Source: Spirochaetia bacterium
GTDB taxonomy: Bacteria; Spirochaetota; Spirochaetia; CADAEX01
Assembly: GCA_017649605.1 (NCBI GenBank)
Contig: JAGCGL010000071.1
Span: 1-35,625 of the forward strand
Direction of reading: 5' to 3'
DNA length: 35,625 nucleotides
A program made the position numbers and the translations under genes. Below, one piece after another: positions 1,210 through 21,093 of the stretch. The first letter of the stretch is position 1. Each line of letters starts with the position of its first letter. Below the pieces are notes generated by a model that searched no databases, had not been told where the DNA came from, and saw nothing but the letters and a program-made list of their open reading frames with translations.

Positions 1210-1591
1210 TGATATTAAGGCCAAAGCTAAAAAAGAGGAGAGAAGAATAAAGGGCCTGCTGTCAGGATCCGGAGTCTCGGCAACTAAAATGAAGCTCCTG
1301 GAGCCCATTATATTAAATACTGCTTGGATGAAAGCCAAGCTGGATGATGCAAGGGATGCGATTAAAAGCAGTAACATCGTTATCACCTATGATAATGGAG
1401 GCGGCCAAAAGGGCCTACGTGAGAATCCATTATTTAAAGGATATGAAAATCTTTGGCGATCATATATGGCCGGAATGAATCGGATAATGGATTCATTGCC
1501 TGATGAGGTTGTTAGGCAGGTTGAAGAAGAAGCTGAGCAGCCAAAGACAATGCTGGAATTAATAAGGAATAAGCATAAAAGAGAGGCGTAA
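1202..1591 (+). CDS. terS: Terminase small subunit (P27-like)
   Basis: A 129-residue, charged, mostly helical protein directly upstream of the large terminase gene, which it meets with an ATG overlap at 1591. Length, position and features such as the NPLFKGYENL...YMAGMNRIMDSLP region fit P27-type small terminase subunits. These recognise the packaging site and regulate the large-subunit ATPase. The gene overlaps the methyltransferase gene by 8 nt. Family assignment rests on position and general likeness, not on a catalytic motif. Confidence 0.7.
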   Translation: MSDDIKAKAKKEERRIKGLLSGSGVSATKMKLLEPIILNTAWMKAKLDDARDAIKSSNIVITYDNGGGQKGLRENPLFKGYENLWRSYMAGMNRIMDSLPDEVVRQVEEEAEQPKTMLELIRNKHKREA

Positions 1592-3021
1592 TGAAAGGAA
1601 GTCAGGAGCCTAGAATAAAAGTTGAGCCGCAGAGATTCTCCACAGATGGAGAAGATGCGGCTATTTTAATGAGTGAATATGGATGCAAGCTCGATAAATG
1701 GCAAGAACTTGTCATAGATTGCTGGCTCGGTAAGGATGAGCAGGGCCGTTATAATGTGACATCTGCCGGCCTAGCACTCCCCAGGCAGAATGGCAAAAAC
1801 GTCTGCCTGGAGGCGAGGGAGTTCTACGGTCTTGTAGTAAACGGGGAGAAAATCCTTCATACGGCTCACCAGGTTCGTACCAGCAAGAAGTCATTCCGGA
1901 GACTTGCTGCAATGTTTACTGACAAGAGGCATCCGGAAATCACAGATATAGTTCGTACAATTAGATATACAAATGGCGAAGAGTGCATCGAGCTTGACAA
2001 CGGCGGCGTGATAGAGTTCTCTGCCAGGAGCCGACAAGCTGCCAGAGGTTTTGACGGAATATCCCTTGTTGTATATGACGAGGCTCAGGAGCTTACAGAT
2101 GATCAAGTTGAGGCTATTATGGCAACGCTCTCGGCCAGTGCCACAGGAACCAGGCAATTAATATACACCGGCACGCCACCATATCCGGGCTGCCCTGGTG
2201 AGGTGTTCCGGAGGCGGCGCAATGTGTGCCTGACAGAGCCCAGCAAAAGAGACTGCTGGCATGAGTGGAGTGTGAGCGCTGATAGCGTATCACAGATCAA
2301 TATTGCTGACACTTCTCTCTGGTATATGTGTAATCCGGCGCTGGGAATCAGATTATCTGAGGATTTTACAGCAGAAGAACAAAAAACCATGAGTGCGGAT
2401 GGATTCGCCAGGGAGCGATTGGGATGGTGGTCCCCTGTTATAGAAGCTCAAAATGATTATGCTATACCGGTTAAGCTCTGGGACAGCTGCAAGAGCATAG
2501 CCAAGGCTCCTGTTGGCAAAACTGCATACGGGGTTAAGTTCACATTGGATGGCTCTGAGGTGTGCCTCAGCGGCGCAGTGATTGCTGCAGATGGTTCGGA
2601 GAGGATTGAGCTGATAGACAGGAGGCCCACAGGGCTGGGCACACAATGGCTCGCAGACTGGCTCAATGTTCGCAAGGATAAAGCGTGCTGTGTAGTCATC
2701 GATGGCCGTAATGGCGTTGATGTTTTGATAGATAAGATAGCAAATAACTGGCGTGTAAAAGGCTCCATTATTAAGCCAAGCGCCAAGGACGTGATTGCAG
2801 CTGTGAGTGTGGTCATGGATGGCCTGAATGAACAGACTCTCACCTGGTATGCAGAGCAGGACGATCTGAGGGATAGTGCAATTACCTGTTGTAAGAGACC
2901 CATTGGAGGCGGATGGGGATTCGGTGGGGAGAATGCTGCTCCAATAGAATCCTGCGCTCTGGCCTTATGGGGTGTTAAGAATAGTAAAAGGGATCCAACA
3001 AGGAAAATGAGAATCGGATGA
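1591..3021 (+). CDS. terL: Terminase large subunit
   Basis: Packaging motor of 476 residues. The ATPase domain shows a Walker A-like LPRQNGKN at residues 63-70, Walker B LVVYDEAQE with D163/E164, and the coupling motif YTGTPP at 192-197. The C-terminal half contains VKFTLDG and VVIDGRNGVD, consistent with the RNase H-like nuclease that cuts concatemers. Length is usual for HK97-type large terminases. It pairs with TerS upstream and the portal downstream. The nearby HNH gene across the joined ends is the usual partner of cos-cutting terminases in Gram-positive phages. Confidence 0.95.
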   Translation: MKGSQEPRIKVEPQRFSTDGEDAAILMSEYGCKLDKWQELVIDCWLGKDEQGRYNVTSAGLALPRQNGKNVCLEAREFYGLVVNGEKILHTAHQVRTSKKSFRRLAAMFTDKRHPEITDIVRTIRYTNGEECIELDNGGVIEFSARSRQAARGFDGISLVVYDEAQELTDDQVEAIMATLSASATGTRQLIYTGTPPYPGCPGEVFRRRRNVCLTEPSKRDCWHEWSVSADSVSQINIADTSLWYMCNPALGIRLSEDFTAEEQKTMSADGFARERLGWWSPVIEAQNDYAIPVKLWDSCKSIAKAPVGKTAYGVKFTLDGSEVCLSGAVIAADGSERIELIDRRPTGLGTQWLADWLNVRKDKACCVVIDGRNGVDVLIDKIANNWRVKGSIIKPSAKDVIAAVSVVMDGLNEQTLTWYAEQDDLRDSAITCCKRPIGGGWGFGGENAAPIESCALALWGVKNSKRDPTRKMRIG

Positions 3022-9087: not shown

Positions 9088-9449
9088 TCGCACTGGATGA
9101 GGACGATCTGATCTGCGATTTTGCAGAATATTATGGCATCTATGATCTGTATGCTCTGGATGTCGAATATGCAGCGACTCTTGCAAGTGGTCTCCGGGAT
9201 AACTCTAGGATCAAGTTAAAGGCGCAGGGCCTGAGGGTAGAGCTCAATACTCTGCTCCTGGCCCGAATTGCTGATGCTGCAGCATTAAATGTTTACGCCA
9301 AGACCAAGGATGCACAGCATAACAGGAATAAGCCCAAGTCAGTGCTTGAAGCTCTGACAAAAGATGATAAAGAGGAGCTGAGGCACTTCACAAGTGGCGC
9401 AGCTTTTGAAGAGGAATGGAGGCGCTTAAATGGCAACAGAACTTGCTAA
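9084..9449 (+). CDS. Tail assembly chaperone, frameshifted extension (gpT-like)
   Basis: Second part of the chaperone locus. The frame is open from the slippery site at 9066 to the stop at 9447-9449 and contributes about 127 residues to a fusion with the 8782 gene. The ATG at 9084 overlaps the upstream stop codon (ATGA), so separate translation of a 121-residue protein is also possible. The C-terminal segment (DDKEELRHFTSGAAFEEEWRRLNG) reads like gp15-type chaperone tails. It overlaps the tape-measure start by 20 nt. Confidence 0.8.
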   Translation: MIALDEDDLICDFAEYYGIYDLYALDVEYAATLASGLRDNSRIKLKAQGLRVELNTLLLARIADAAALNVYAKTKDAQHNRNKPKSVLEALTKDDKEELRHFTSGAAFEEEWRRLNGNRTC

Positions 9450-11469
9450 GGCGTATGTGCAGATAGTTCCATCAGCCAAGGGAATAGGCAGCGCTATCTC
9501 CAAGGAAGTAGGCGGAGAATCTGCCAGTGCCGGCAAGAGTGCCGGGCTTAATATTGCAGGAGCTATCAAGGGTGCTATCGCTGCAGCCGGTATCGGTACA
9601 GCGATCAAAGCAGCCCTGGAGGCAGGCGGTAATCTGCAACAGTCATTTGGCGGCCTGGATACTCTCTACGGTGATGCTGCAGAGGGTGCCAAGAAATATG
9701 CTGCAGAAGCTGCCAAGGCAGGAATATCTGCGAATAATTATGCTGAGCAGGCTGTGTCATTTGGTGCAAGCCTTAAGGCTGCATATGGCGGAGATACTAC
9801 CAAGGCAATGGAGGCTGCCAATACAGCGATTCTTGACATGGCGGATAATAGCGCAAAGTTAGGAACACCTATCGAAAGTATCCAGGTGGCGTACCAGGGC
9901 TTTGCGAAAGGGCAGTATCAACTCCTTGATAATTTGAAGCTTGGCTACGGAGGCACCAAAACTGAGATGCAGAGGCTCCTTAAGGATGCCGAAAAGATCT
10001 CCGGCGTTAAGTATGATATGAGTAATCTCGGAGATGTATATGATGCCATCCACGTGGTACAAGAGGAGCTGGGCCTCACGGGTGTAGCAGCTGCTGAGGC
10101 GGAGGGAACTTTTACCGGATCGCTTGGATCCATGAAAGCAGCGGCGGAGAATCTCATGGCTAATCTCGCCCTGGGCGAAGATATAACAGATGAGCTGAAT
10201 GTTCTCATGACCAGTGCTTCGACCTTTATCACCAAGAATCTGGGGCCAATGGTTGCGAATATCCTGACTGCACTGCCTAACCTGCTCACTGGACTATCAA
10301 CTATCATAACTGATTCTATCAGCAATATAGATATGAATAGCCTGGTGCAGACAGGTCTGCAGATAGTGACTGGCCTGGCTAATGCGATCGTTACAGCTGT
10401 GCCACAGCTCTTGATTGCAGCTGGTCAGCTGGTCATTGCCTTGGGGCAGGCACTACTTGAAACAGACTGGCTCTCATATGGGGCCTCTATCATTTTAAAT
10501 CTGAAAGATTCACTTATGACAGCTGCGGCTGATATGTTCGGAGGTGATCCGTTTATCGTTAGCAATATCGGCCAGGGTATTACGGCAGCTCTCCCAGAGA
10601 TTCTGGGCAAGGGTGTCGAGATCTTGACCAATCTGGTCAACGGTATTCTTGAAAATATACCGCAGCTCATTGCTACAGCAGGGGAGCTTGTCACATCGTT
10701 TGCAACATTTATATTGGAAAATCTGCCGGCTATCCTGGATGCAGGCGCTCAGCTCTTCACTAATCTGGTTAATGGCATTGTCAAGAATCTGCCCAAGATT
10801 GCATCAACAGCGCTTGATGTTGTTGTTAAATTCGCAGCTGCTATTGCTAAGAACCTGCCGCAGATTCTGCAGAAGGGCATTGAGCTCCTGGGAAGGCTCC
10901 TTGCTGGTATCATCCAGGCAATTCCGAAGATCCCCGGAACAATCATGAAGGTCATTAATGCTATCAAAGAAAAGTTCTCAGGCTTTGATTGGAAGGAGAT
11001 CGGCAAGAATATCCTGGAAGGTGTCAAAAACGGCATCCTAAACGCAACCAAAATGGTTGTTGATGCTGCCAAGGAGGCAGCCGGCAAGATCTGGGATGGC
11101 ATCAAGGGATTTTTCAAAATTGAATCACCGTCTAAGCTCACGGCCTATGCCGGTGAAATGATAGACGCAGGCCTTGCCAAGGGTATCCTTGATAATGAGG
11201 GCATGGTCGATAAGGCTGTGAAGAGCCTGAGCACAACGGCAAGCACATCCCTGCAGGTTAATCCGACTTATGGATCATTCACAGGGCCTCAAACAGACCT
11301 GGATGCTCTGACAGATCTCCTGGCAAGGTATCTGCCTGTTATCGCCAGCGGCGAGAATACCAAGGTAGTTATCGAGGCAGATGCAGGCAGAATGTTCAGA
11401 GTGATGCAGAGAGAATCCATCAGGAACACTCAGCTGGTAGGAACAAACGCAGTCCTGGCTGCACATTAA
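9430..11469 (+). CDS. Tape measure protein
   Basis: A 679-residue protein following the chaperone locus. Residues 1-270 resemble the phage tail tape-measure core, including QQSFGGLDTLYG and SIQVAYQGFAKGQYQLLDNLKLGYGGT. The middle (about 275-510) is a run of amphipathic repeats of the form LP.IL..G..IL..LVNGI..N.PQI, the usual helical length-setting segment. The C-terminus has IESPSKLTAYAGEMIDAGLAKGI, a conserved tape-measure ending. The short length implies a modest tail. Hydrophobic stretches at 280-350 may help DNA enter the membrane. Confidence 0.93.
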   Translation: MATELAKAYVQIVPSAKGIGSAISKEVGGESASAGKSAGLNIAGAIKGAIAAAGIGTAIKAALEAGGNLQQSFGGLDTLYGDAAEGAKKYAAEAAKAGISANNYAEQAVSFGASLKAAYGGDTTKAMEAANTAILDMADNSAKLGTPIESIQVAYQGFAKGQYQLLDNLKLGYGGTKTEMQRLLKDAEKISGVKYDMSNLGDVYDAIHVVQEELGLTGVAAAEAEGTFTGSLGSMKAAAENLMANLALGEDITDELNVLMTSASTFITKNLGPMVANILTALPNLLTGLSTIITDSISNIDMNSLVQTGLQIVTGLANAIVTAVPQLLIAAGQLVIALGQALLETDWLSYGASIILNLKDSLMTAAADMFGGDPFIVSNIGQGITAALPEILGKGVEILTNLVNGILENIPQLIATAGELVTSFATFILENLPAILDAGAQLFTNLVNGIVKNLPKIASTALDVVVKFAAAIAKNLPQILQKGIELLGRLLAGIIQAIPKIPGTIMKVINAIKEKFSGFDWKEIGKNILEGVKNGILNATKMVVDAAKEAAGKIWDGIKGFFKIESPSKLTAYAGEMIDAGLAKGILDNEGMVDKAVKSLSTTASTSLQVNPTYGSFTGPQTDLDALTDLLARYLPVIASGENTKVVIEADAGRMFRVMQRESIRNTQLVGTNAVLAAH

Positions 11470-19260: not shown

Positions 19261-19763
19261 TGGCTTATAATAACGGCTATCCAATGTATTCTCCCCAATA
19301 TAGCGGCATGCCCCTGCCCTCTCAGGGCATGGGGCAGCAATATGCCCAGCAAGGATATCAACAGGGATTCCAGGGGCAGCAGCTGCAGCAGAGCATCCAG
19401 CAGCCTCAGCAGATTCAGAATGGCGGATTTATGCTAGTACCCTCTGAGGATATAGCAAGATCATATCCTGTGGCTCCCGGGAACTGCGTCACGTTCAAGA
19501 TTGAGGGCCAGCCTATAGTGATGGAGAAATCCATGGGATTCTCACAGCTGGAGGCTCCCCGTGTGGAGAGATATAGACTTGTCAGAGAGGATGAAGCGGC
19601 AGCAGGTGAAAAAAGCCCTGCAGAGGCTCCTGAGGCCTCTCAGCAATGTGCTGCAGATATCGAGGATATCCGAAACGAGATATCTAATATCTGGAAAAAC
19701 ATAGACAAGCTCAAGGAGCAGATTAGGCGGCCCATTAAGCGCAAGGATGAGGAGGCATCATGA
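19260..19763 (+). CDS. Gln/Pro/Gly-rich accessory protein
   Basis: A 167-residue protein of unknown function. The first 55 residues are low-complexity Gln/Gly/Tyr/Pro (SQGMGQQYAQQGYQQGF). A compact region (LVPSEDIARSYPVAPGNCVTFKIEGQPIVMEKS) resembles segments seen in small accessory proteins of Clostridia phages. The C-terminus is a short predicted coiled coil with a basic end (IDKLKEQIRRPIKRKDEE). Translation is coupled on both sides by overlaps. It may be a virion-associated or assembly factor. Confidence 0.6.
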   Translation: MAYNNGYPMYSPQYSGMPLPSQGMGQQYAQQGYQQGFQGQQLQQSIQQPQQIQNGGFMLVPSEDIARSYPVAPGNCVTFKIEGQPIVMEKSMGFSQLEAPRVERYRLVREDEAAAGEKSPAEAPEASQQCAADIEDIRNEISNIWKNIDKLKEQIRRPIKRKDEEAS

Positions 19764-19984
19764 GAGGAAGTCCGGGAGATGTTATGACGGTATTTAATCG
19801 ACTAAAGGAGGATCCCAGGCAGATATTATCCATGAGATTCAATATTCCTGATAACGTGGATCTAAATGATCCCGGGGCCATCCTGCAGCATCTGCTCAAC
19901 TCGGGCCAGGTATCACAGGCCCAGGTCAACAGAATGATGTCCATGCAGAATAATCCCATGATTCGGAGATTGTTCGGGATGTAG
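19760..19984 (+). CDS. Small helical accessory protein
   Basis: A 74-residue protein beginning at ATG 19760 inside the upstream stop (ATGA overlap). It is rich in Met and Asn with FNIPDNVDLNDPGAILQHLL and NSGQVSQAQVNRMM, a pattern of short helices. I recall similar small proteins next to the other genes of this cassette in Clostridia phages, but no function is known. A perfect 18-bp palindrome begins two nt after its stop codon. Confidence 0.55.
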   Translation: MRGSPGDVMTVFNRLKEDPRQILSMRFNIPDNVDLNDPGAILQHLLNSGQVSQAQVNRMMSMQNNPMIRRLFGM

Positions 19985-19985
19985 A

Positions 19986-20003
19986 ACAATGTCATGACAT
20001 TGT
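19986..20003. promoter_or_regulatory. 18-bp perfect palindrome
   Basis: ACAATGTCATGACATTGT reads the same on both strands. It lies directly after the 19760 gene and about 8 nt before a possible -35. No T-run follows, so it looks more like a protein-binding operator than a terminator. Confidence 0.6.
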
Positions 20004-20076: not shown

Positions 20077-20093
20077 ATGCAGAAAATCTGCAT
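20077..20093. promoter_or_regulatory. Inverted repeat ATGCAGA-AAA-TCTGCAT
   Basis: A perfect 7-bp inverted repeat with a 3-nt centre. It is followed by TAATTTGGTTTTATT, which is only weakly U-rich, so it could be a weak terminator or an operator. It lies between the candidate promoter and the structured leader. Confidence 0.45.
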
Positions 20094-20122
20094 AATTTGG
20101 TTTTATTCGTAAATAATGCATA

Positions 20123-20194
20123 TTAAGGCGGCCACCTTGATAGACGGGCTATCCGGCGAGAGGGTAGCTCCTGACCTTAAATAATTAAAGGAGG
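20123..20194 (+). promoter_or_regulatory. Riboswitch-like 5' leader with alternative folds over the ribosome site
   Basis: Two folds compete for CCTTAA at 20175-20180. Fold A pairs it with TTAAGG at 20123-20128, closing a domain that contains the hairpin GCTATCC (20148-20154) with GGGTAGC (20162-20168). Fold B pairs it with TTAAAGG at 20185-20191 over a 4-nt loop, and CCT at 20170-20172 also pairs with AGG at 20192-20194. Fold B hides the whole AAAGGAGG site that serves ATG 20203. A further local hairpin, AAGG 20125-20128 with CCTT 20135-20138, would break fold A. I do not recognise a known riboswitch class. Confidence 0.55.
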
Positions 20195-20202
20195 ATAGAA
20201 CT

Positions 20203-21093
20203 ATGGCACTCACTGATACTGATAACATGGTAATGCCTGTGGCGCCGATGTACGGAGGCGGCGGCAGCGGATTCGGATCCGGATTCGGTGGAGATTGGGG
20301 CTGGATCATATTGCTCCTTCTCCTGGCAGGAGGTAACGGCTGGGGCGGCGGCTTCGGTGGCGGATTCGGCAACGCTCAGCTGGGATATGATTTTCCCTGG
20401 CTTATGAACGGCCAGCAGGGGATTGTTGCAAATACCAATTACGGATTCCAGAATGCGCTCTTAAATGACAATGTAACATCCATAAGAGATGGCGTATCAG
20501 CGCTCTCAACTCAGCTCTGCAGCTGTTGTGGGGATATCGCTGCGCAGCTCTCCGGAGGTTTTGCCGGAGTGAATGCTGCAGTAACAGGCGCACAGAATGC
20601 TATCGCTCAGCAGCTTTATAGCAATCAGATTGCAGATCTTAACAGAAGCTTTGATGCTCAGACCGCAGTTACTACCGGCATGAACAGTCTCTCTATGGGA
20701 TTGCAGAATTGCTGCTGCGAGAATAGAGCAGCCACAGCTGATCTCAAGTATACTGTAGCAACAGAGGCGTGCGCCGATCGTGCAGCCATCAGTGATGCGC
20801 TCCGTGACGTGATCTCTGCTAATACCGCATCAACTCAGCGCGTTCTCGACCAGCTCTGTGCTGACAAGATAGAGCAGAAGAACGATACTATAGCCCAGCT
20901 CAGGAGCGAACTCATATACGCTCGTGGCCAGGCATCCCAGGACGTACAGACTGTAGCCATCCAGGCAGGACAGCGTGCTCTTGCCAACGAGGTTGAGCAG
21001 TACGTGCTGCCTACTCCCAGGCCTGCCTATATCGTGCAGAATCCCAATTGCTGCCAGCAGAATCTCTGCGGCTGCGGTTGTGGTGTAGGCTGA
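20203..21093 (+). CDS. Gly-rich and Cys-rich membrane-associated accessory protein
   Basis: A 296-residue protein of unknown function. The N-terminus is glycine-rich (GSGFGSGFGGDWGW) and contains one hydrophobic segment (WIILLLLLAGG, about residues 29-40) between Gly/Phe repeats. The middle is helical and Ala/Asn-rich, with clusters CSCC and NCCCENRAATADLKYTVATEACADRAAISDAL. A predicted coiled coil follows at about 220-255, and the end is Cys-rich (NPNCCQQNLCGCGCG). The regular pattern of helices and paired Cys suggests a secreted, surface or virion-associated fibrous protein. Its ribosome site is controlled by the leader described at 20123. Confidence 0.65.
   Translation: MALTDTDNMVMPVAPMYGGGGSGFGSGFGGDWGWIILLLLLAGGNGWGGGFGGGFGNAQLGYDFPWLMNGQQGIVANTNYGFQNALLNDNVTSIRDGVSALSTQLCSCCGDIAAQLSGGFAGVNAAVTGAQNAIAQQLYSNQIADLNRSFDAQTAVTTGMNSLSMGLQNCCCENRAATADLKYTVATEACADRAAISDALRDVISANTASTQRVLDQLCADKIEQKNDTIAQLRSELIYARGQASQDVQTVAIQAGQRALANEVEQYVLPTPRPAYIVQNPNCCQQNLCGCGCGVG

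Follow-up and report, generated by a model that had tools for sequence, protein, structure and literature searches.

The leader of a phage mRNA for a Gly/Cys-rich protein probably carries a homotypic kissing-loop element, a hairpin (hp1) that would join two copies of the same mRNA. Judged from sequence comparison, what evolution has kept in the loop of hp1 is the self-complementarity of a hexamer and not its letters. The window, as we call the whole stretch of DNA that was analysed, is one whole contig (C93) of 35.6 kb from a metagenome-like assembly of 1.79 Mb with 136 contigs. With a terminase and a tape measure present, it looks like a tailed phage. The features in question are these.

1591-3021: terminase
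9430-11469: tape measure
19760-19984, + strand: 74-aa ORF upstream of the leader, ending before it, with the Gly/Cys-rich gene on the other side
19986-20003, + strand: perfect 18-nt palindrome ACAATGTCATGACATTGT, directly 3' of the stop codon of the 74-aa ORF; hairpin loop TCATGA (UCAUGA)
20121-20142, + strand: hp1, stem TATTAAGG/CCTTGATA (20121-20128 with 20135-20142), 6-nt loop CGGCCA (20129-20134) with the self-complementary core GGCC
20146-20170, + strand: hp2, stem GGGCTATCC/GGGTAGCTC (20146-20154 with 20162-20170), loop 20155-20161; found in long-form leaders
20172-20191, + strand: hp3, TGA plus CCTT/AAGG (20175-20178 with 20188-20191), loop AAATAATTA
20187-20194, + strand: Shine-Dalgarno sequence (SD) AAAGGAGG, partly inside hp3
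20203-21093, + strand: Gly/Cys-rich gene (296 aa, phrog_16490), ATG at 20203; the leader precedes its homologues in relatives

The Gly/Cys-rich protein has no Pfam match, and its PHROG match (phrog_16490) has no assigned function. Its AlphaFold model is poor (mean pLDDT 49) and mostly helical. The gene is single-copy in 20 of the 20 records checked. Two relatives have an in-frame stop in the gene match under the standard code, TAG in L005 (G001) and TAA in L047 (G006). Many further TAG codons lie near the match in G001, which may have a recoded stop codon.

Relatives of the protein were gathered from two sets of 80 viral loci and from 80 loci in genomes, with 201 distinct upstream regions among them. 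A hairpin with a palindromic hexamer loop is present in 120 of the 201, compared to 16 (9-26) in dinucleotide shuffles and 8% of 1370 other gene starts from the same loci. A stricter cut retains 94 regions versus 5 in the shuffles and 3.4% of other gene starts. By the criteria used, about 40% of the distinct upstream regions are without such a hairpin. The common loop hexamers are UGCGCA, GUGCAC, and GCGCGC. Rarer ones are UGUACA, UGAUCA, CGGCCG, UGGCCA, UCCGGA, CGUACG, CUGCAG, UUGCAA, CAGCUG, GCAUGC, CCGCGG, ACGCGU, and AGCGCU. In 107 loci, a set chosen as palindromic, 16 different palindromes are found, with at least 56 hexamer changes on the protein tree.

The fair test uses hairpins selected by stem and flank only, with the hexamer ignored. 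Among loops selected in this way as [AG]AG-N6-TA, 14 of 15 are palindromic with four different hexamers. For G-N6-A loops on a stem of at least 5, the number is 18 of 19 with five hexamers. The same blind selection before other genes gave three palindromic loops out of 34, and the chance expectation is 1/64 per fixed position. Three pairs of hexamer columns covary in the alignment from the blind selection; the stem pairs in it were selected for pairing and only the hexamer columns count as a test. This pattern selection took the place of an alignment (A2) made with MAFFT from many hp1 hairpins, which folded to nothing because the flank lengths differ.

The hexamer has G or A as its 5' neighbour in 81 of 109 cases. 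On the 3' side the neighbour is A in 48 cases and G in 25, and another 25 have T, which belongs to the ..UA type; this is a mixed picture as regards flanking purines. Two flank types are conserved in hp1 loops, AAG..UA and G..A. In most relatives hp1 begins a median of 7 nt past the stop codon of the upstream ORF, and it lies about 42 nt from the start codon in short leaders and about 76 nt in long ones. Some relatives have a longer spacer between the stop codon and hp1, several with an apparent terminator hairpin. L122 and L143, from different phages, share a structured-looking stretch (..ATCTCACG..ATGCTTACGCATGTTCCTGAACAAAACAAGTATAAGCC..CGTGAGAT) between the upstream ORF and hp1, for which no Rfam match was found. 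One clade (L022, L196, L198, L206, L214, and L215) keeps the hairpin and the ATATAAA following it, with non-palindromic loops of the AAAAUA type. This group may represent either a natural loss or the use of another pairing partner. The cultured phage Ceridwen (MN882553.2), which was isolated on Butyrivibrio fibrisolvens (PMC7372960), has the full leader, with the hexamer UGCGCA in an AAG-N6-UA loop and two copies of hp2.

Folding predicts three hairpins before the Gly/Cys-rich gene in the window: hp1, hp2, and hp3. The predicted probability of hp1 is about 0.98, and the internal AAGG/CCTT hairpin proposed in the first-pass annotation is part of it. Taken alone, the stability of hp1 in the window is unremarkable (z -1.0 to -1.6); its significance comes from the relatives. 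In position and flanks it is homologous to the relatives' hairpins. On its letters, the window's hp1 is a weak member of the family, as cGGCCa has a 4-nt palindrome in a 6-nt loop and this is expected by chance in roughly one in five such loops. The GGCC core is also found in nine relatives. Model R2, built from 25 relatives, matches the window's leader at 57.6 bits, a score to be read with the window among those 25 sequences.

The window's hp1 is preceded by an AT-rich spacer of 136 nt without a counterpart in most relatives. Within this spacer, 20077-20093 (ATGCAGAAAATCTGCAT) resembles a terminator, a hairpin followed by a T-rich tail, whether read on the + or on the - strand. The transcript of the Gly/Cys-rich gene may start downstream of it. 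A search for a GC stem with a U run found no terminator-like site at hp1, hp2, or hp3. The palindrome at 19986-20003 is the longest perfect one in the window and occupies the site where most relatives have hp1. Perhaps it acts here as an additional kissing hairpin, or as a displaced one.

Downstream of hp1, tandem copies of hp2 are found in L001, L055/L056, and phage Ceridwen. The window's hp3 has a predicted probability of about 0.5-0.8 and overlaps the SD. Across relatives the hp3 consensus is TRA-CCNN-AAAAATTA-NNGG, with arm pairs CCTA/TAGG, CCGC/GCGG, CCTC/GAGG, CCGT/ACGG, CCAT/ATGG, and others. RNAalifold on the relatives gave two-sided compensatory changes in 10 of 12 pairs for hp2 and hp3 together and in seven of eight pairs for hp2 alone. 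Going by this covariation, the leader is a structured element far beyond chance. At the gathering score, no Rfam 15 family matched the leader, including riboswitches, leaders, and GOLLD/ROOL/OLE, and a permissive threshold (E<=5) on the element returned nothing meaningful. The first-pass annotation was right that the leader is structured but unclassified, and related phages do conserve it through compensatory changes. It overlooked hp2 and the main feature, the self-complementary loop of hp1. An int-alpA RNA (RF02996) scores above the gathering threshold on the same phage contig as one relative's leader (L055 2682-2749, - strand).

The same annotation read 20123-20194 as a translational switch in which a ligand or a protein would select among two or three folds that exclude one another. 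The letters it relied on are present in the window (TTAAGG at 20123-20128, AAGG and CCTT within hp1, CCTTAA at 20175-20180, and AAAGGAGG at 20187-20194), and the complementarities between them exist. The pairing of the CCTTAA arm near the SD has its counterpart in the predicted and covarying hp3, which touches or overlaps the SD. Of 49 long leaders, 26 have an hp3 that overlaps the SD, which would fit the switch, but in the other 23 hp3 precedes a separate downstream SD that lies clear of the hairpin, so that sequestering the SD is not a conserved design. For the other half of the switch, closure of 20123-20128 with 20175-20180, folding either of two leader-length stretches gives a probability below 0.01. 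Removing the SD-bearing 3' end raises it only to 0.07-0.09, and forcing the closure costs about 3-4 kcal/mol. All six pairs can form in two of the 49 long-form relatives (the window and L055) and in 1.8% of shuffles; closure at the shuffle frequency argues for chance complementarity. Covariation between 20123-20128 and 20175-20180 was sought in the relatives and not found. We therefore rejected a translational riboswitch with exclusive folds, because of the two alternative pairings hp3 alone covaries and the closure is no commoner than chance allows. There is no hint of a ligand, and the strongest signal, the self-complementarity of the loop, is one of RNA-RNA pairing. The proposed switch is very improbable, the long-range pairing being neither conserved nor predicted.

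The dyad could instead be a DNA operator or recombination site, as a stem with a palindromic loop also reads as an inverted repeat in DNA. In some relatives (L192, L221, L228, and L229) stem and loop merge into one perfect palindrome, and there a DNA dyad and an RNA hairpin look alike. The flanks of the hexamer argue for RNA. The stretch between stem and hexamer is longer on the 5' side in 65 hairpins, equal on both sides in 31, and shorter on the 5' side in only three, where a DNA dyad would be symmetric. Detection without bias found 10 G-U interruptions of the pairing versus three A-C, a weak test of strand that leans the same way. The position directly past a stop codon also goes against a DNA site, the median gap of 7 nt leaving little room for an intervening promoter. 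Moreover, the palindrome varies freely, unlike a site read by a single protein. Taken together, we find a DNA site quite unlikely. If hp1 were the site for an RNA-binding protein, such as a translational repressor or processing factor, the palindromic loops would be incidental. Such a site would be expected to look much like this, a hairpin kept in one position ahead of a single gene, with AAG..UA and G..A conserved as flanks. But the loop hexamer, which the protein would read, varies and only its self-complementarity is kept, and we regard a protein site as unlikely as well.

We thus favor the kissing loop, in which pairing would be between molecules as the adjacent letters of one loop cannot pair together. 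An intramolecular partner was sought from -800 to +1500, where a leader's own palindrome is not enriched (52 copies with 47 expected). Scanning nine records for a second copy of the element found none that was convincing. The scan omitted hexamers with fewer than three G/C, making it blind to leaders with UGUACA and UUGCAA, and gave many chance matches in the GC-rich records G009 and G010. In G005, G004, and G020, where the leader hairpin is visible to the scan, no hairpin with the same hexamer was found elsewhere except for the antisense reading of the site. Credible R2 scores in the window's genome, the record pieces, and the loci searched occur only at this leader. Searching 393 genomes of the phylum with R2 returned two weak matches (L264 and L265) in AT-rich sequence, which we judged false. 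The simplest partner for the loop is another copy of the same mRNA.

In the proposed mechanism, the apical-loop hexamer, usually with a purine 5' and mostly A or UA 3', would pair loop to loop with that of a second transcript. Dimers would presumably form in the infected cell at the high mRNA levels of late infection. We are less confident about what follows, that the dimer may control translation or stability of the Gly/Cys-rich gene. By keeping the RNA folded from the upstream stop codon to the SD, it could set initiation or shield the 5' side from exonuclease. The hairpin is placed where a ribosome finishing the upstream ORF would sit, about 40 nt before the start codon, and could set re-initiation. 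In long leaders, hp2 may serve as a spacer, and hp3, next to the SD, may contribute translational control of its own. Alternatively, the purpose of the dimer may be to gather nascent chains of the protein, which is helical in the poor model. A more tentative idea, and one we hold as doubtful, is that a late phage mRNA senses its own concentration, with dimers or clusters forming only when it is abundant and then altering translation or stability or co-localising nascent chains.

If the dimer forms, this would be a new mode of control for bacterial mRNA. Under the concentration-sensing idea, self-recognition would be by RNA only, and different phages with different palindromes need not cross-pair. 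The 16 interchangeable palindromes, spread over very divergent gut and rumen phages, would then be a natural experiment on loop-loop recognition. The idea is testable, as the isolated phage Ceridwen (Butyrivibrio fibrisolvens DSM 3071) carries the leader.

Few RNA homodimers are known in nature that have evolution to support them. Among them are the genomes of RNA viruses, large noncoding RNAs, certain riboswitches and ribozymes, and a handful of eukaryotic mRNAs (PMC7357161, PMC9104694, PMC12286853). No description of a leader like this one was found in the literature searched, the scope of which left out most subscription papers and all preprints. The guanidine-II riboswitch also sits in a bacterial leader and has kissing hairpin loops that are self-complementary (PMC7357161). 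However, it has two hairpins with fixed, ligand-binding ACGR loops, while in the phage leader there is one hairpin, its hexamer varies, and nothing suggests a ligand. The leader is proposed to work like the kissing loop of oskar mRNA (PMC7357161), though the latter is eukaryotic, lies in a 3' UTR, and acts in localisation, and the phage hairpin is in a 5' leader beside the SD. OLE, ROOL, and GOLLD are bacterial or phage RNAs joined in part by symmetric kissing loops, and a ROOL RNA was found in cow rumen (PMC12286853). The logic that a change from palindrome to palindrome reflects intermolecular pairing was applied to the OLE and GOLLD homo-oligomers, whose loops show covariation of this type (PMC12286853). 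These RNAs are noncoding and hundreds of nucleotides long, whereas the leader is a cis element of 20-40 nt before a coding gene with no Rfam match to them. In retroviral DIS elements the palindrome is a GC-rich hexamer flanked by purines (PMC7357161). The leader family likewise has stable hairpins with a self-complementary hexamer at the tip, though the window's loop has the 4-nt core only, and its sequence changes keep the self-complementarity, as the 16 palindromes and at least 56 changes indicate. Shared with the HIV-1 DIS are the GC-rich apical-loop hexamer and palindromicity kept through change, with a partial likeness in the flanking purines, and the DIS hexamer GUGCAC is among the commonest here (PMC7357161). 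Unlike the DIS of a packaged RNA genome, hp1 lies in the mRNA leader of DNA phages or between their cistrons, with no known chaperone or packaging role and no Rfam relation.
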